From positions 1 to 25,775 of the forward strand of contig JAIRTI010000038.1 of the NCBI GenBank assembly GCA_031255035.1: a stretch of DNA of 25,775 nt, given 5' to 3'. Below are positions 7,603 through 25,775 of the stretch, piece after piece. Below the pieces are notes generated by a model. That model had not been told where the DNA came from. It did no database searches and saw only the letters and a list, made by a program, of their open reading frames with translations. This stretch comes from Desulfovibrio sp. (GTDB lineage Bacteria; Desulfobacterota; Desulfovibrionia; Desulfovibrionales; Desulfovibrionaceae). The number at the start of each line of letters is the position of its first letter. The stretch's first letter is position 1. A program made the position numbers and the translations under genes.

Positions 7603-7655
7603 TCCTGTTATGTATGGCTTCAGAGCTGATTTTATGAAGCCAGCCAGTTTGCATG

Positions 7656-7887
7656 CAGCAATTCTCATTTTGTCGAAGCCAATTTGATCGCATGTGGGCT
7701 CTGCCCACAGCGCCAGGCCGCCGGCCCTGGACCCGGCGAATGGGTGGCTGATAGTGGTGCCCCTGTTGCTACGCGCAGCCGGAACCCAAACTGAGGGGGT
7801 CCGGGGCAGCGCCCCGGCCGCCGGAGGCATTGCCTTTCACAGTCGGCGAATGAAGGGCCGCAAAAAGGCTCATAATGAGAATTGCTG
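7656..7887 (+). mobile_element. MITE-like structured repeat, copy 2 (full length)
   Basis: This 232-bp copy of the element runs from CAGCAATTCTCATT to AATGAGAATTGCTG, a perfect 14-bp terminal inverted repeat. It contains the TGTGGGC-TCT-GCCCACA hairpin (7693-7709) and the GGGGCAGCGCCCC stem. No 9-bp duplication is visible (left flank GTTTGCATG, right flank TTGGGAGAG). That fits either an old insertion or a junction made by recombination between copies. It separates the hmc operon from the accessory genes, and the predicted mntA promoter starts 18 bp after it. Confidence 0.72.
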
Positions 7888-7904
7888 TTGGGAGAGTACT
7901 TCTC

Positions 7905-7933
7905 TTGACGACAATATCCCTTCTCGGCATAGT
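7905..7933 (+). promoter_or_regulatory. Predicted sigma-70-type promoter for mntA
   Basis: TTGACG (7905-7910) and CATAGT (7928-7933) are separated by 17 nt, about 23 nt ahead of the mntA ATG. The promoter lies just outside the right end of the MITE-like element. Confidence 0.4.
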
Positions 7934-7955
7934 TGGCGGAAGGAAGGTAAAAGTT

Positions 7956-8252
7956 ATGCGTCCCTCAGAACTGCTACATATTCACCGCGAAGAAGTCCTT
8001 GAAATAATTAACCGCTATCCGACGATAACAAATCTTCGGATAGTCGGCTCTGTAGCCCGTGGAGAAGATACCGAAGAGAGTGATATTGACTTTCTTGTAG
8101 ACGCAGAGCGAGGAACTACATTGTTCCACCTCGTGAACGTGCAGGATGAACTCCAAAAACTCTTAGGAGTCCATGTAGATATTATAACTGATGGCGACCA
8201 TTTGCATAAATATATGAAAATGCTCATTGATAAAGAAGCCATGGCGATATGA
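7956..8252 (+). CDS. mntA: MntA-type nucleotidyltransferase antitoxin
   Basis: This 98-residue minimal nucleotidyltransferase belongs to the MNT family, paired with HEPN toxins. Family members add AMP to a tyrosine of the HepT toxin and so neutralise it. The active-site layout is complete: Gly31-Ser32 with GSVARGE, then Ser-Asp43-x-Asp45 (SDIDFLVD) and a third acidic residue, Asp75, in HVDII. The ATG at 7956 is chosen because AGGAAGG lies 8 nt upstream and the protein then begins at the usual family start. Its TGA overlaps the next ATG (ATGA, 8249-8252), the classic coupled arrangement with hepT. The sequence is visibly more AT-rich than the core genes, suggesting acquisition. The gene itself looks intact although its partner does not. 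Confidence 0.85.
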   Translation: MRPSELLHIHREEVLEIINRYPTITNLRIVGSVARGEDTEESDIDFLVDAERGTTLFHLVNVQDELQKLLGVHVDIITDGDHLHKYMKMLIDKEAMAI

Positions 8253-8709
8253 ATACTCCAGAAACTGACCTTCGTATCCTCAAACTTCTTGATGACATCC
8301 ATACTTCGGCAAATAGAATCCAGATTATGCTGAAAAGAGACTCTTGATTCTTTCCTGAATCCTGCTTCAATGATATTGCAAGATGCCGTTGCAAGACGTT
8401 TTACGATAATAGGGGAAGCATCAGCAGCACTTTTCAGAAAACACCCAGAATTTTGTGAACAAAACCAACAAATACCCCTCCGCCAAGCCCGAGATTTAAG
8501 AAACTTCATCATCCACGACTATGATGGTATTGAGTGGGATATCATATGGGACACGGCCCGGGAAGATTTGCCAAGGCTCATCAAGGCTCATCAAGAGCAT
8601 CGAGCCTCTCCTCTCCGAAGAGGAAGAAAACCCGCAAAAAAGGAAGCGTCAGGCTCAAAGCAAAATCGCTGTAAGGACGTCAGAACGCCGGACCAAAGAC
8701 CGCCTCTGA
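8249..8709 (+). pseudogene. hepT: HepT-type HEPN toxin (DUF86), disrupted by two frameshifts
   Basis: Partner toxin of MntA; HEPN toxins of this family are RNases. The frame opening with MNTPETDLRILKLLDDIH at 8249 stops at TGA 8345-8347 after 32 residues. Dropping one A from the AAAA run at 8333-8336 continues it as KETLDSFLNP...LQDAVARRFTIIGEA and on to the catalytic RNFIIHDY (R-x4-H-x-Y; Arg codon 8499, His 8514, Tyr 8520). A perfect 10-bp tandem duplication (8573-8582 and 8583-8592) then shifts the frame again. Removing one unit restores DLPRLIKSIEPLLSEEEE and a stop at 8707-8709, giving about 149 residues. With both defects, no full-length toxin can be made in the ordinary way. An internal ATG at 8370 could give a fragment that keeps the HEPN motif. 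Confidence 0.75.
8573..8592 (+). repeat. 10-bp tandem duplication inside hepT
   Basis: AAGGCTCATC is present twice in tandem. One unit is enough to keep the family-like C-terminus in frame; the second shifts it. It is probably a replication-slippage event. Confidence 0.8.
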
Positions 8710-8733
8710 TCCGGCGTTCGCCTCCGCCGGATC
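8683..8733. terminator. Overlapping hairpins between convergent genes
   Basis: Two mutually exclusive inverted repeats share the sequence 8710-8716: GAACGCCGGA (8683-8692) with TCCGGCGTTC (8710-8719), and GATCCGGCG (8708-8716) with CGCCGGATC (8725-8733). They span the end of hepT and the TGA of the minus-strand muramidase gene. They probably act as a bidirectional terminator, although neither strand shows a clear U-tract. Confidence 0.5.
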
Positions 8734-9328
8734 AGCGTTTTGAGCGCAACGCCACGCAATCCGTGTACGCTTTGTTCAACCTTACGTTATACTGGTTGTC
8801 CGCATAGCCCGGTCCGTTGTAGCCTCTGGCAAAGGCCTCCCAGTCTTTGTCACGCAACGCGCCGTCCAACTTATTGGTTCTGATGAAGCCGCAGGCGGCG
8901 CGCAGATGCTCCGAGGCGGAGCGGCCCATGGCCTCGACAAAAGCCGCCAAGGTCTTATAGCCGCACGCCCGGTAGTTATTCCCCATTATCTGGAAAGCCC
9001 CCCACGAGGTGGAACGGTCCGCCGCTTCGCGATCAATGGCCCGCGCGCGTTCAAGCCGGGCATATTCTCCCGCGTCGCCCTTGTAAAATTGACGCGTCCA
9101 CTTCGGGTACAGGATATCCTTGTTGCCCTCAACATAGTTTTCCGGATTCAGACCGCGTTTTTTGAGTTCCCTCCAGAACACATGGCCCTCAAACAATATT
9201 TTCGGCTGCCCGTCTGGTAAAAAACCGTCCCCGTTCGATTCCACCCGGCGCACCGCCTCAAGGGCGCAGGGCTCGACGCCGAGTTTCGCGGCCATGGACT
9301 CAATTGCACTCCAATCAACATTCCTCAT
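8732..9328 (-). CDS. N-acetylmuramidase (PF11860-type lysozyme)
   Basis: This 198-residue peptidoglycan hydrolase is expected to cut the MurNAc-GlcNAc bond. Recognised motifs are VESNGDGF (residues 29-36) with the probable catalytic Glu30, PKILFEGHVFWREL (42-55), SWGAFQIMG (108-116) and FARGYNGPGY (166-175), which are characteristic of the N-acetylmuramidase family found in phage endolysins and phage-like clusters. There is no signal peptide, transmembrane helix or cell-wall-binding repeat, and no holin or spanin beside it. The ATG at 9328 has AAGGAT about 7 nt upstream. It is the last gene of a minus-strand operon that starts at luxR (11794), 16 nt after the 118-residue gene. Its role in this operon, whether lysis, release or cell-wall remodelling, is unknown. 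Confidence 0.85.
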   Translation of the reverse strand: MRNVDWSAIESMAAKLGVEPCALEAVRRVESNGDGFLPDGQPKILFEGHVFWRELKKRGLNPENYVEGNKDILYPKWTRQFYKGDAGEYARLERARAIDREAADRSTSWGAFQIMGNNYRACGYKTLAAFVEAMGRSASEHLRAACGFIRTNKLDGALRDKDWEAFARGYNGPGYADNQYNVRLNKAYTDCVALRSKR

Positions 9329-9344
9329 AAATCAATCCTTATCT

Positions 9345-9701
9345 CTATTCAGGTTCCGGAAGCGGCCCGCCGTCCAGGCTGGCCGATAGCTTCACCTCTA
9401 TGCCGTCAATAATTATTGTAAAAACAAGGTCATGCCGGCGAACCATGGAGAAGAACCGCAGAAGCAACGGCGGCCGTCCGAAACGAAGCTCAGCCTGCTC
9501 GTTCCTGTGTTTCAAGGCACGGAACGGGTTCTTCGGCGTATAGGCGTCCACCTTGACAGCAAGCCGCAACTCCATTCCGGGCGTCGCTGCATACATCGAA
9601 GCGCCCGCTCCTTCATGCCACCGCATCTGGCGCGCCAGGCAATGGCCCAGACGCCGGAAGACGTTCCACCAGAGTTTCGGCACGGGATTCAGCGTCGGCA
9701 T
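9345..9701 (-). CDS. Hypothetical protein of 118 residues
   Basis: I do not recognise this family. The protein starts MPTLNPVPKLWWNVFRRLGH, is rich in Arg and aromatic residues in its first third, and ends in two likely beta strands (HDLVFTIIIDGIEVKLSASL) and PLPEPE. No signal peptide or clear membrane helix is seen. It lies 3 nt after the 88-residue gene and 16 nt before the muramidase, so all three should be co-translated. The strand-rich C-terminus (LRLAVKVDAY, FTIIIDGIEVKLSASL) loosely recalls the beta-rich style of the DUF2589 proteins upstream, which may mean a shared assembly. Conservation of the gene beside muramidase and DUF2589 genes would establish it as real. Confidence 0.6.
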   Translation of the reverse strand: MPTLNPVPKLWWNVFRRLGHCLARQMRWHEGAGASMYAATPGMELRLAVKVDAYTPKNPFRALKHRNEQAELRFGRPPLLLRFFSMVRRHDLVFTIIIDGIEVKLSASLDGGPLPEPE

Positions 9702-9704
9702 GGC

Positions 9705-9971
9705 TTAGCCCAGCCATAAAGGTTTGCGGGTGAACCCCACGTGATAAACGATCCACTGCATGACAATCTGGTGCTCGCCCACATTCATGACCGTGAAATT
9801 CTTCTCCGTGCCCATGATATAGCCGGAGGGCGACTCGGACAAGCAGCGGTTCAGGGTATCCAGGCTCGCGGCCGCGTCCTCTTCGGAAAAAGGCCGGGCC
9901 GGGTCCGTTGAGCCTACAGTTATACGCTTCACGAAGCGTACCGTGCTCTGATCAAAAGGTTTTTTCGACAT
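9705..9971 (-). CDS. Hypothetical protein of 88 residues
   Basis: I do not recognise this family. The small protein begins MSKKPFDQSTVRFVKRITVG, has a helical middle (SEEDAAASLDTLNRCLSE) and a strand-rich end (NFTVMNVGEHQIVMQWIVYHVGFTRKP). No signal peptide, metal site or catalytic motif is apparent. The ATG at 9971 has AAGGAG 6 nt upstream. It lies between the second DUF2589 gene (107 nt upstream, with a GGCGG/CCGCC hairpin in the gap) and the 118-residue gene. Because both neighbours are on the same strand at short spacing, it is treated as a genuine operon member. Confidence 0.62.
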   Translation of the reverse strand: MSKKPFDQSTVRFVKRITVGSTDPARPFSEEDAAASLDTLNRCLSESPSGYIMGTEKNFTVMNVGEHQIVMQWIVYHVGFTRKPLWLG

Positions 9972-10078
9972 GCTCGCTCCTTGGCGGTTTTATACCGCCC
10001 GTGCAAAACGATTGCGTACGCCCGCCGCGACACGCCTGTTCTCGCGTTTACTGTACTGGCGGCGCCGCGATTATCCTG

Positions 10079-10708
10079 TTAATGAGTCCCGGCCTTGGAC
10101 TCGGCCTTGGACTCGGCCTTGGGCACGGCCTTGGGCTCGGCCTGGGGCACGATGGCGGCGTGCATGATGTCCAGCACCCTGGCCAGCCCTTCCGGCATGC
10201 CGTCGTCACGGGCCGTCACCTGGACGTGGTACTTGGCCGAGTTGTCGGATTTCCGGGTGCTCTCCTTATGGGAACTCACCGAACCGGTGACCGAAACGGA
10301 AAGCGGACCGAACCTGGCCGAGGCCTTGAGCTGGGCCTTGGCGTCCAGGGACGACTTTTCCTCAAAGGAGGATTTGACCTCCATGTCAAAGGTTATGTCC
10401 ACGGTTTTGACGCTCAGGCTCGGGATGTTGACAATAGCGAGCATGGGCACGTCAAGCGTGACTTTCTGGTCTTGCGGGTTGCCTTTTTCGTCCAGTACCC
10501 GCTGGGTAAAGGCGAAAAGCGCGGTCCGCGTGGCCCGGGGCCCGCCGCCGACGGCGGCGGGCAGAAAGCCCACGTCCTCGATAAAGCTGGCCGTTGCCTT
10601 GGCCAGTTCCAATTGCGCGTCGCAGGCGGCCCGCAAGGGCGCGCCGATAAGGTCCTGCATGGGCAATCCCTTGAATTGTTGACCCATGTTCACAAGTTCA
10701 TCAGCCAT
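10079..10708 (-). CDS. DUF2589 family protein B
   Basis: This 209-residue protein of the uncharacterised DUF2589 family shows the typical N-terminal helix LPMQDLIGAPLRAACDAQ, the strand VPMLAIVNIPSLSVKTVDI, and a Ser/Lys-rich alternating stretch (FDMEVKSSFEEKSSL, then GPLSVSVTGSVSSHKESTR) leading to MPEGLARVLDIMHAA. No function is established for the family. The alternating polar/hydrophobic strands could form an amphipathic sheet, but that is speculative. The C-terminus carries a four-residue (E/V)-(P/S)-K-A repeat encoded by 12-nt tandem units (10091-10150). No signal peptide is seen. The ATG at 10708 has AGAGGTG 6 nt upstream. It lies 97 nt after its paralogue. Confidence 0.82.
   Translation of the reverse strand: MADELVNMGQQFKGLPMQDLIGAPLRAACDAQLELAKATASFIEDVGFLPAAVGGGPRATRTALFAFTQRVLDEKGNPQDQKVTLDVPMLAIVNIPSLSVKTVDITFDMEVKSSFEEKSSLDAKAQLKASARFGPLSVSVTGSVSSHKESTRKSDNSAKYHVQVTARDDGMPEGLARVLDIMHAAIVPQAEPKAVPKAESKAESKAGTH
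10091..10150. repeat. 12-nt minisatellite in the DUF2589-B C-terminus
   Basis: Five 12-nt units of the form GGCCTTGG(A/G)CTC occur in tandem: two identical, the others with one or two changes. On the coding (minus) strand they encode a flexible tail of (E/V)(P/S)KA repeats just before the stop. Unit number could vary between strains. Confidence 0.8.
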
Positions 10709-10805
10709 AAAACACCTCTTTCTTTTTCTTTTAAACGATGACTATAAAGGAGGCCGCGCCGGACAAAGCGCAACCGTTTTGCCAGTGGTTCTTACGGGCG
10801 GCCCG

Positions 10806-11372
10806 TCATGTCGCGGAGTTCCTGGGCGCGTCCAGCGTGATGCCGGGGCCGGAGTAGCCCTGCGCGCTTTTGAGGATTTCATTGATCATCCTGGCCGTGC
10901 CCTCACTGGGCTCGATGCCGGCCACGGTAAGGGAGATTTTGGCCGTCAATCCGTTGCGCCTGCCGAAGCCGCTGCCAAGATCGACCGTGATGACCGAATC
11001 CTGCGGCTCCTCAACGCCGTCAGTGGACAAGGCCGCTCCCTCCACTTCGTCGTCCAGGTTGCTCAGGTTGCCGAGTGTCACGGAAAAATCGACTGTGGCT
11101 GTATCGATACGCAACCCGTTGTTGGGCAAAAGCCCGAGGTAGGGAACATTGTAGACGTCCCGTTCCCCGGCCTGGGCGTCGGGTCTGAGGGAGGGCAAGG
11201 CTACCTTGAAACGCCTTGGCGTCGTATAGCTCCGGTTGTTTTGATCCCGCTTCGTCGGAGAAAGAAAGCTGCGAAAGGTCTCGATCTGCTTCCACTCCAG
11301 TTGTCGCTGGGCTTCGGTGAGTGACGTGGCAATAGCCACAATCAGCGAACTCAATGATTTGTCAGATGCCAT
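10806..11372 (-). CDS. DUF2589-like protein A
   Basis: This 188-residue protein is a shorter-homology relative of the downstream DUF2589 protein. LRIDTATVDFSVTLG corresponds to its LSVKTVDITFDMEV, and LTAKISLTVAGIEPSEGTA followed by RMINEIL corresponds to YHVQVTARDDGMPEGLARVLDIM. The N-terminal part (MASDKSLSSLIVAIATSLTEAQRQ) is helical, followed by a strand segment ending VYNVPYLGLLP. The start chosen is ATG 11372, with GAAAGGAG 8 nt upstream, rather than an in-frame TTG at 11390. The first 11 nt overlap the end of luxR (stop 11362-11364), so its translation may be coupled to the regulator. Function is unknown; two paralogues in tandem suggest a hetero-oligomer. Confidence 0.75.
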   Translation of the reverse strand: MASDKSLSSLIVAIATSLTEAQRQLEWKQIETFRSFLSPTKRDQNNRSYTTPRRFKVALPSLRPDAQAGERDVYNVPYLGLLPNNGLRIDTATVDFSVTLGNLSNLDDEVEGAALSTDGVEEPQDSVITVDLGSGFGRRNGLTAKISLTVAGIEPSEGTARMINEILKSAQGYSGPGITLDAPRNSAT

Positions 11373-11794
11373 AGCTGGTACTCCTTTCAAAAATCGCCGC
11401 GCGATGGTTCAATAGCTCCGCAAGCGCGGCCCGGCTGTTGTTCACGTTGAGCTTTTCAAGAATGTTTTGCCGCTGCGTCTTGACCGTGTGCGGGCTACGT
11501 TGAAGATGCCGTGCCGTCTCCTGGGAACTGTAGCCCTCGGCCAGCATGCGCAGCAGCCTGTTCTCGCACGGAGTCAGCCGCGGATGCGGCGGCAGTTCGC
11601 TTTGTTGCGCGTACACCCGCAGCAGAAGATGCAGGGAATTACGGACGCCGGCCTTTTCACAGATGTTGCGCAAGTGGCGGTGAACGGTCTGCGGACTGAT
11701 ATAAAGCCGCTCACCTATGGCTTTTGTCGGACAAGCCAAGCCTCACGCAGGAAACAATCTCGTCTTCACGTTTGGAGAAATGGATGATGTGCAT
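11362..11794 (-). pseudogene. Tandem-HTH LuxR-family regulator, frameshifted
   Basis: A reading frame with an excellent ribosome-binding site (AGGAGG at 11800-11805, 5 nt before ATG 11794) encodes MHIIHFSKREDEIVSCVRLG and LSDK, then stops at 11711-11713. Removing one A from the coding-strand AAAA run (TTTT at 11722-11725) continues it as AIGERLYISPQTVHRHLRN and so on to a stop at 11362. The restored 143-residue protein is two LuxR-type helix-turn-helix domains in a row (first ending near ICEKAGV, second from LTPCENRLLRMLAEGYSS to ILEKLNVNN) with no sensor domain. It is the first gene of the minus-strand operon. The second part alone could start at a TTG (11739) and would keep a complete second HTH. 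Either a null mutation, an indel error or recoding explains the break. Confidence 0.72.
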
Positions 11795-11818: not shown

Positions 11819-11847
11819 GGTATACAATTATTGTTATCGATGTGCAA
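11819..11847 (-). promoter_or_regulatory. Predicted promoter of the luxR-DUF2589-muramidase operon
   Basis: On the minus strand TTGCAC (11842-11847) and TATACC (11819-11824) are 17 nt apart and would give a transcript start close to 11811, just ahead of the luxR ribosome-binding site. The -35 hexamer is weak and overlaps the large palindrome, which suits an activator-dependent or repressed promoter. Confidence 0.35.
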
Positions 11848-11869
11848 ATACGTAATATTATGTATTTGC
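11844..11869. promoter_or_regulatory. 26-bp near-perfect palindrome, candidate operator
   Basis: GCAAATAC (11844-11851) and GTATTTGC (11862-11869) flank a TAATATTA core; only one base pair of the 26-bp dyad is mismatched. It overlaps the predicted -35 box and lies 50-75 bp upstream of the luxR start. Its size and symmetry fit binding of a dimeric HTH regulator, most simply the LuxR-type protein encoded next to it (autoregulation). Confidence 0.6.
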
Positions 11870-11955: not shown

Positions 11956-12187
11956 CGGCAATTCTAATTTTGTCGAAGCCAATTTGATCGCATGTGGGCT
12001 CTGCCCACACCCGCCAGGGCCTTGCCGGCCCCCGCTTCGTACCTGGACACGGCGAATGGGTGACGGGAGTGTTGCCATGTTGATACGCGCAGCCGGAACC
12101 CAAACTGAGGGGGTCCGGGGGAAATCATTTCCCCCGGCGGGGTCCGGGGCAGCGCCCCGGCCGCCGGAGGCCTTGCCTTTCACAGTT
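11956..12187 (+). mobile_element. MITE-like structured repeat, copy 3 (right end degenerate)
   Basis: The left end is CGGCAATTCTAATTTTGTCG, and the interior matches copies 1 and 2, including the TGTGGGC/GCCCACA hairpin at 11993-12009. It carries an extra segment of about 28 bp with a perfect hairpin (CCGGGGGAAAT at 12115-12125, ATTTCCCCCGG at 12127-12137), made by duplication of the GGGGTCCGGGG core. The clear homology ends near 12187, after CTTTCACAGT; the right terminal repeat is lost or too diverged (a weak similarity runs to about 12233). It is in the same orientation as copy 2. Confidence 0.65.
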
Positions 12188-25621: not shown

Positions 25622-25775
25622 CAGCAATTCTAATTTGTCGAAGCCAATTTGATCGCATGTGGGCTCTGCCCACACCCGCCAGGGCCCGGCCGGCCCAGGA
25701 CCCCGCCAATGGGTGACGGGAGTGGTGCCCTGGTGGTACGCGCAGCCCGCACCCAAACTGGGGGGGGCCGGGGGG
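25622..25775 (+). mobile_element. MITE-like structured repeat, copy 4 (cut by the window end)
   Basis: The copy starts CAGCAATTCTAATTTGTCG 28 nt after the lon stop and follows the interior of copies 2 and 3 through the TGTGGGC/GCCCACA hairpin (25658-25674) and the ACCCAAACTG segment to the last base. It is in the same orientation as copies 2 and 3. It could also serve as the 3' transcript end of the lon block, because no separate terminator lies before it. Confidence 0.68.

Follow-up and report, generated by a model that had tools for sequence, protein, structure and literature searches.

What does the DUF2589 operon in this stretch of Desulfovibrio DNA do, and how is its expression controlled? 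The window, i.e., the whole stretch of 25,775 nucleotides that was analysed, is a single contig, with Desulfovibrio-like genes, from a genome assembly that is 65% complete; its host is termed a gut bacterium. Six minus-strand genes, for a regulator, two proteins of the family DUF2589, two small proteins of 88 and 118 residues (p88 and p118) and an N-acetylmuramidase, were confirmed at positions 8732–11794. In the reading that we favour, with a probability of about 0.5, the operon is a tightly gated wall-breaching or release cassette and one copy of a widespread accessory module. The association of the DUF2589/p88 core with wall-acting enzymes and the +1 frameshift in the regulator are both well supported; the mechanism of the cassette is what we infer. 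The features of the operon, listed from the regulator to the muramidase, are the following:

11844..11869, minus strand: candidate operator, a spacer-free inverted repeat of 13 nucleotides (nt), 92% complementary, 5' of the regulator
11711..11794, minus strand: open reading frame (ORF) 1 of the regulator (0-frame), with an ATG downstream of AGGAGG; first half of helix-turn-helix (HTH) 1; stop TGA at 11711–11713
11722..11725, minus strand: putative +1 frameshift site AAA-A; 0-frame codons GAC AAA AGC
11362..11721, minus strand: ORF2 of the regulator (+1 frame), the remainder of HTH 1 plus HTH 2, of the GerE/LuxR type
10806..11372, minus strand: DUF2589-a, 188 residues; PF11655, E = 2.3e-19, 70.7 bits
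10079..10708, minus strand: DUF2589-b, 209 residues; PF11655, E = 6.7e-45, 153.6 bits; alignment A1
9705..9971, minus strand: p88, the 88-residue core protein, with a beta-alpha-beta-beta model
9345..9701, minus strand: p118, the 118-residue protein, plausibly a diverged third DUF2589-like subunit
8732..9328, minus strand: endolysin-type N-acetylmuramidase; PF11860, E = 2.4e-67

A widespread core of DUF2589 and p88 proteins

Both DUF2589 proteins exceed the Pfam gathering cut-off for PF11655, which is 23 bits, and they are homologous to each other (hhalign probability 97%, E = 9e-11), so the two paralogues named in the preliminary description of this locus stand. The Pfam entry gives no function for the family. 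A DUF2589-b scan of genome contigs returned 246 relatives, from which 80 loci were retained; with 11 loci of the window's order and the window itself, these make 92, while the enzyme counts given below are over 91. The loci include duplicates (L109 is L003, L105 is L050, L106 is L063 and L107 is L025), and their genes were called with a home-made program, which overlooked at least one hydrolase (L020). The alignments A1, A2 and A3 contain the window protein together with 29 of 80, 35 of 79 and 33 of 70 hits, respectively.

DUF2589-a, DUF2589-b and p88 occur together in 82 of the 92 loci, which come from records of Proteobacteria, Firmicutes, Bacteroidota and Myxococcota. This core is a broad, unnamed and widespread module, and since the conserved unit consists of the two DUF2589 proteins and p88, the latter belongs to the core rather than being a bystander. 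The p88 family comprises 1,511 clusters among 5.8 billion proteins; none of the 120 clusters listed has a Pfam domain, and all are named simply as hypothetical or uncharacterised proteins. Nine residues, G20, N41, P48, G50, Y76, H77, F80, R82 and P84, are invariant in 36 sequences, and the predicted fold of p88 has a mean predicted local distance difference test (pLDDT) score of 90. In the literature searched, which left most subscription journals outside its scope, no operon-level DUF2589 module is described; DUF2589 is named in a single paper and PF11655 in none.

A third small gene recurs in the module. Homology links its cluster c3 with DUF2589-a (hhalign 97%, E = 5e-11) and cluster c7 with c3 (95%). 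The protein p118 has no match in PHROGs, Pfam, NCBIfam or PADLOC and no close relative of it was found. The same four databases hold no match to p88, in keeping with the earlier statement that the two small proteins lack a known family. Six proteins grouped by position, p118 among them, resemble c3 (hhalign 84.6%, E = 7e-6, a result for the group and not for p118 alone), and for this reason p118 is plausibly a fast-evolving, diverged third subunit of DUF2589 type. A SecB-like chaperone was tried as an identity and rejected, as hhalign against a five-sequence SecB alignment gave probabilities of 0.3 and 0.5 of 100, and the fold gave weak hints only. In another Desulfovibrionaceae genome, DUF2589-b is seemingly split into two ORFs (L113, 7396–7976, minus strand).

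Within the order, the module is present in 12 of 297 genomes and within the phylum in 11 of 395, the patchy occurrence expected of an accessory element. Altruistic defence, in which the module would sense stress or a phage and the endolysin would lyse its own cell in an abortive infection, draws on this same distribution, on an enzyme that is potentially self-lytic and on a likely toxin-antitoxin pair (by eye) adjoining the operon. Nevertheless, the five non-regulator proteins are without a PADLOC match, the regulators in the neighbourhood are of the LuxR, OmpR and AraC types, and phages themselves carry DUF2589, all of which leaves such a role highly improbable.

An exchangeable wall enzyme

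The window muramidase matches PF11860 over the whole domain (profile positions 2–172 of 175, 227 bits), which bears out its earlier assignment. It resembles the solved endolysins 5nm7, 7q4s and 7rum (E = 7e-40 to 9e-29), and its VES motif near residue 30 is aligned in the two alignments shown. No signal-peptide-like or transmembrane (TM) segment was found in it.

Wall-acting enzymes accompany the core in 64 of the 91 loci, always on its strand, and in 19 of 32 dereplicated loci, i.e., 29 at 75% DUF2589-b identity plus three added by hand. The proposed co-occurrence of DUF2589 genes with a muramidase thus holds for wall-acting enzymes at large, but the PF11860 type of the window is rare, with 5 of 91 loci including one duplicate record. 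The other clusters are GH108 (25 loci), GH19 (19) and a PG_binding_1 type (10), and all 59 clustered enzymes are encoded in the same direction as the core, no more than 1.6 kb from it. Enzymes from single loci, again on the strand of the core, belong to GH24 (L077), GH25 (L072), Amidase_2 (L074, about 2.3 kb off, and L078) and GH108 (L020), so that the types comprise six hydrolase families and one PG_binding_1 type. Clustering by BLAST underlies these counts, with Pfam assignments for only a subset of the cluster members, and 10 of the 64 loci have the PG_binding_1 type, whose catalytic part is without a family assignment.

A Pfam census of genes near to and far from the core points the same way. 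Among 150 near genes (of 156; those of L111 and L112 dropped out), GH108 was found five times, GH19 five times and Amidase_2 twice. For 149 far genes, the 25 families shown include none of the three, though a family with a single far member would not appear in that display; the far control was a random 150 of 198 genes, from which the L016 muramidase was excluded as an operon member. In 25 genomes chosen by hand, 15 of them because the enzyme had already been seen beside DUF2589, GH108 is largely confined to DUF2589 operons (18 of 21 genes), and in two Luteibacter genomes with two DUF2589 loci both GH108 genes sit there. GH19 is less exclusive.

A hydrophobic 19-mer is absent from the first 70 residues of all 59 clustered enzymes. 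Endolysins that depend on a holin or another helper usually have no such stretch. A holin-like gene is present in six loci of Luteibacter and Rhodanobacter, and the three of these six cluster members that were tested all match phrog_2359 (E = 5e-13 to 3e-12). The genes of L061 and L067 run GH108, DUF2589-a, DUF2589-b, p88, third subunit, exported-looking protein and holin.

Two further proteins recur beside the core, namely an exported-looking protein with two cysteines (cluster c1, 27 loci, e.g., L040:9613–10353) and a multi-TM protein (cluster c5, 17 loci, e.g., L040:10396–11391), both recognised by eye and both without a Pfam match in the members tested.

The presence of c1 and c5 would agree with envelope remodelling, in which the hydrolase would open the wall locally, and without lysis, for a surface or trans-envelope structure containing DUF2589. 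We consider this unlikely, given that the hydrolases are of phage-endolysin types without signal peptides and that a membrane partner is absent from the window operon.

A regulator with a probable +1 frameshift

The regulator, FRAMESHIFTED, is of the LuxR/GerE type with tandem HTHs, the first of which is divided between two frames, with a putative +1 frameshift site, AAA-A, at the break. From the ATG at 11794, with AGGAGG in front, the first HTH reads MHIIHFSKREDEIVSCVRLGLSDK and then meets the stop at 11713–11711; ORF1 is a frame of 27 codons whose stop ends at 11711, and the second half of HTH 1 continues in the +1 frame from 11721. Pfam recognises two GerE stretches (E = 1.5e-20), the first of which is completed only across the frame junction. 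Hence, all six genes of the preliminary description are present where it placed them, but the regulator is not the single ORF that it assumed.

An identical break, at the same codon, is found in D. cuneatus and in the Smac51 plasmid. In the latter, the second frame stands alone as a hypothetical protein of 113 codons; gene callers shorten such regulators, which are therefore easily missed. A profile of the downstream part located four further places in a scan of the phylum, and an improved profile was then run on 288 genomes of the bacterial family, where it found 29 nearly full-length places, the window and D. cuneatus included. The open frames at these places are 110–157 residues long, while nearly all other LuxR matches listed exceed 210 residues.

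In a table of 29 distinct members, including the window and with 28 from its own bacterial family, a +1 shift restores an ATG-started ORF1 of 21–24 codons (24 in the window) in 28 members. At the junction, 27 of the 29 have AAA-A, always at the same codon, and a Shine–Dalgarno-like site precedes ORF1 in 26, being unreadable in L260 and L264, while L261 has no ATG at that place. The exceptions to the pattern are L261, which does not fit the +1 rule, L264, which has CTT-G, and G056:C28, which has a stop near the 3' end of the second frame. A +1 shift gives the normal length of the LuxR helix, whereas a −2 shift would give one extra residue.

Overlapping frames, a conserved slip site and homology of both frames to one protein, the marks of a +1 frameshift gene, are all present here. 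Because +1 fits 28 of 29 members and AAA-A is found in 27, the frameshift is very probably programmed, and the full-length regulator apparently needs the ribosome to skip one nucleotide. On a simple reading, the tRNA-Lys would slip from AAA onto the overlapping AAA. A regulator apparently made in full only via a frameshift suggests tight control of a risky wall-opening function.

The split could also reflect decay, sequencing error, reinitiation at the second frame or slippage of the polymerase, without any ribosomal frameshift. Possible starts lie close to the junction in some members (TTG 11739 in the window, GTG in L016), and in eight members the next 0-frame codon is AAA, giving a long run of A (nine in G045:C8) at which polymerase slippage is possible; the three exceptions above count on the same side. 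However, errors and decay would be expected to scatter, whereas codon, direction and AAA-A are shared by 27 of 29 distinct members, isolates and metagenome-assembled genomes alike. Both frames have also remained homologous, ORF1 is preceded by a start and a Shine–Dalgarno-like site, and the window and most other members have merely four or five A. Such an origin of the split is therefore very unlikely, and a programmed frameshift is preferred.

Members of this regulator family are found in front of different genes. Among 27 loci, listed with one regulator per locus, the regulator fronts DUF2589 in three (the window, L003 and L016), and a small excisionase-like gene (by eye) follows it in at least seven; recombinases or other genes follow elsewhere. 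Of the neighbouring products, one recombinase has a match to XerD (E = 6e-7) and one protein of mobilisation type a match to Replication protein B. In the Desulfovibrionaceae loci L235, L237, L269, L270, L271, L273 and L288, the frameshifted tandem-HTH regulator lies immediately 5' of the excisionase-like gene.

A comparable arrangement is known from FseA, which the available portions of two reports describe as an activator of the excision of integrative and conjugative elements that is made by a programmed +1 frameshift (PMC10359603, PMC5009743). As far as these portions go, FseA is likewise a DNA-binding activator that is produced only when the ribosome passes, by a +1 shift, from one short frame into another that overlaps it, and it is often truncated in annotation; several members of the present family adjoin recombinase or mobilisation genes. 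It differs in its domains, DUF6499 and DUF2285 there as opposed to tandem LuxR HTHs here. Membership of the FseA family was rejected, as the 25 Pfam families shown for the second frame include GerE and other HTH families, but neither DUF6499 nor DUF2285. Since the contexts of the regulator parallel FseA, mobile elements may have supplied the switch of the DUF2589 operon, or the operon may once have belonged to one. A comparable frameshifted family of LuxR type was not found in the literature searched, again with most subscription journals outside its scope.

Phages, archaea and points against a release cassette

DUF2589 pairs are also found in phage contigs, some of them with an endolysin or a holin nearby. 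Cultured-phage records hold DUF2589-b in one 4-kb fragment of 50,697, and p88 in none, while among IMG/VR contigs the bacterial profile found 7 and a phage-type profile 50. The 54 phage loci, which include repeats of the same contigs and exclude L115, yielded DUF2589-b in 49 and 48 DUF2589-a genes, usually adjoining DUF2589-b; in 22 of them, a small TM protein of one family adjoins the pair or lies close to it. That these are phages is shown by matches to head or portal genes in L117, L118 and L121 and by a holin in L119. The absence of phage genes that had been noted earlier is therefore true of the window, but not of the family, in which phage contigs carry DUF2589 pairs and some bacterial operons have holins.

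Several observations weigh against a release cassette. Only 6 of the 54 phage loci yielded a GH24 gene of the kind sought, and none yielded p88; L115, the sole IMG/VR contig with p88, may be host DNA, since its DUF2589-b and p88 appear the same as in the Roseateles locus L031. In the bacterial loci, 27 of 91 have no recognised wall enzyme, and in the 10 with the PG_binding_1 type the catalytic domain matched no Pfam family. GH19, GH24, GH108 and perhaps PF11860 share a lysozyme-like fold, which GH25 and Amidase_2 do not, and the enzyme families are therefore different, yet not all unrelated. Because the loci share ancestry and include duplicates, their counts are not independent events, and LuxR genes are just modestly commoner near the core than far from it (7 vs. 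3). No holin, spanin or other TM protein is found among the products of the window operon, which leaves the export of the muramidase unexplained. The model of DUF2589-b is poor (pLDDT 64), and no fold match indicates an activity. Archaeoglobus is an archaeon without peptidoglycan, and the core would not be solely about peptidoglycan because, according to the part of the source available, DUF2589-related genes are found there (AF0414–AF0417; PMC3949148).

A protein resembling WHH/colicin-DNase (HNH) enzymes directly follows p88 in L058 (9006–9998), with a relative in L057 (cluster c120), and effector delivery fits this finding equally well. The main rival, because enzymes other than wall hydrolases occupy the same place, is an effector carrier, in which the DUF2589/p88 core would load or deliver variable antibacterial effectors, with wall hydrolases as the commonest and the exported small neighbours perhaps as immunity proteins. 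Six hydrolase families besides the HNH/colicin-DNase-like protein would suit it, as would a weak astacin-like metalloprotease match in L066 (below cut-off, E = 7e-4), the small exported-looking proteins of many operons (c1, by eye) and those that L003, L016 and L108 have between muramidase and p118-like gene. Yet the 25 commonest families of the near census contain no secretion ATPase, spike, sheath or injector, c1 is not bound to one hydrolase family, the window has no exported partner, and the occurrence in phages beside lysis genes favours release. Delivery of effectors is thus possible, if rather doubtful.

Layout and neighbourhood of the operon

The spacing of the genes, described as tight, is so between the regulator and DUF2589-a, which overlap by 11 nt, but gaps of 97 nt on the DUF2589-a side and 107 nt on the p88 side flank the DUF2589-b gene. 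A terminator-like hairpin lies at 10775–10752, inside the 97-nt gap; hairpins of this kind are at chance level in the region (5 seen vs. 4.2 ± 2.0 expected). The gene set, for its part, recurs across many genomes, which is more than chance. As for the single promoter and operator that had been proposed, a candidate operator is present at 11844–11869, but a simple scan 5' of the regulator gave no promoter of the sigma-70 type.

Elsewhere in the window, ORFs resemble by eye glyA, ribD, ribE, ribBA, leuS, holA, radC, lon and redox genes. A likely MNT nucleotidyltransferase/HEPN toxin-antitoxin pair (7875–8252 and about 8370–8807, both on the plus strand; by eye) is convergent with the operon. An intergenic repeat of about 220 bp is present in four copies or parts, at 7655–7887 and 11958–12187 (direct), 438–650 (inverted) and 25634–25774 (direct). 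The first two direct copies, about 4.3 kb apart, flank the operon together with the MNT/HEPN pair, and a cassette mobile by recombination might look so.

A model of the cassette and its meaning

In the wall-breaching or release cassette that we propose, the full-length activator would rarely be made; with so little of it, the operon would be silent in most cells and would fire in few cells or only under strong induction. The DUF2589 and p88 proteins, with an N-terminal helix and a beta domain, would assemble. Either the hydrolase would then free this assembly and other contents through local or whole-cell lysis, or the assembly would help the signal-less hydrolase to reach the wall. The manner of working would be akin to that of a phage lysis cassette or a type 10 secretion system (T10SS), with a different core.

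A bolder reading, offered tentatively, is that DUF2589 and p88 form the core of an unrecognised class of release or delivery apparatus, spread over several phyla, p88-free in some phages and combined with at least six hydrolase families, the expression of which in Desulfovibrionaceae would be throttled by an AAA-A +1 frameshift in a LuxR family that elsewhere fronts recombination genes of mobile elements. The operon is best taken as a wall-breaching cassette with a recoded activator, and there is a real chance of such a new class. With their conserved +1 frameshift, the regulators would be, after FseA, a second family of activators throttled in this way. Families such as DUF2589-a, DUF2589-b, p88 and the p118-like proteins gain a shared context that can be tested, and their tie to wall hydrolases leads one to expect release, lysis or delivery.

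Comparison with known systems

A known anti-phage system was rejected, as PADLOC matched only the regulator, via its HTHs, to models of the CARF/Csa3/CasR type. So was a prophage remnant: the neighbouring genes look metabolic (by eye), and the six operon proteins gave PHROGs matches for the endolysin and the HTHs only.

The cassettes of phages resemble the operon in that its endolysin matches PHROGs endolysin families, in that the phrog_2359 holin is present in some operons and in that a few phage contigs have a GH24 endolysin close to the DUF2589 pair. They differ in that the core subunits have no significant PHROGs match, the regulators are host-type and p88 is absent from the cultured-phage records and the 54 phage loci.

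Among bacterial systems, the closest are the lytic cassettes grouped as T10SS, such as ChiWXYZ of Serratia and YenLC of Yersinia (PMC10847048). In the accessible part of that source, these comprise a holin, an endolysin and spanins, and no core like DUF2589/p88 is named; here, no spanin was seen, and a holin is present only in some relatives and not in the window. An endolysin in a non-prophage operon is found in the window, but neither holin nor spanin is, and no product of the operon genes is TM-like, and identity with T10SS was accordingly rejected. Shared with T10SS, as far as the same part describes it, are a bacterial operon outside prophages, an endolysin, sometimes a holin, and dedicated control. 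In the T10SS work there, the activity of bacterial lytic cassettes is reported from a specialised minority of cells (PMC10847048), and such action in few cells fits a throttled switch.

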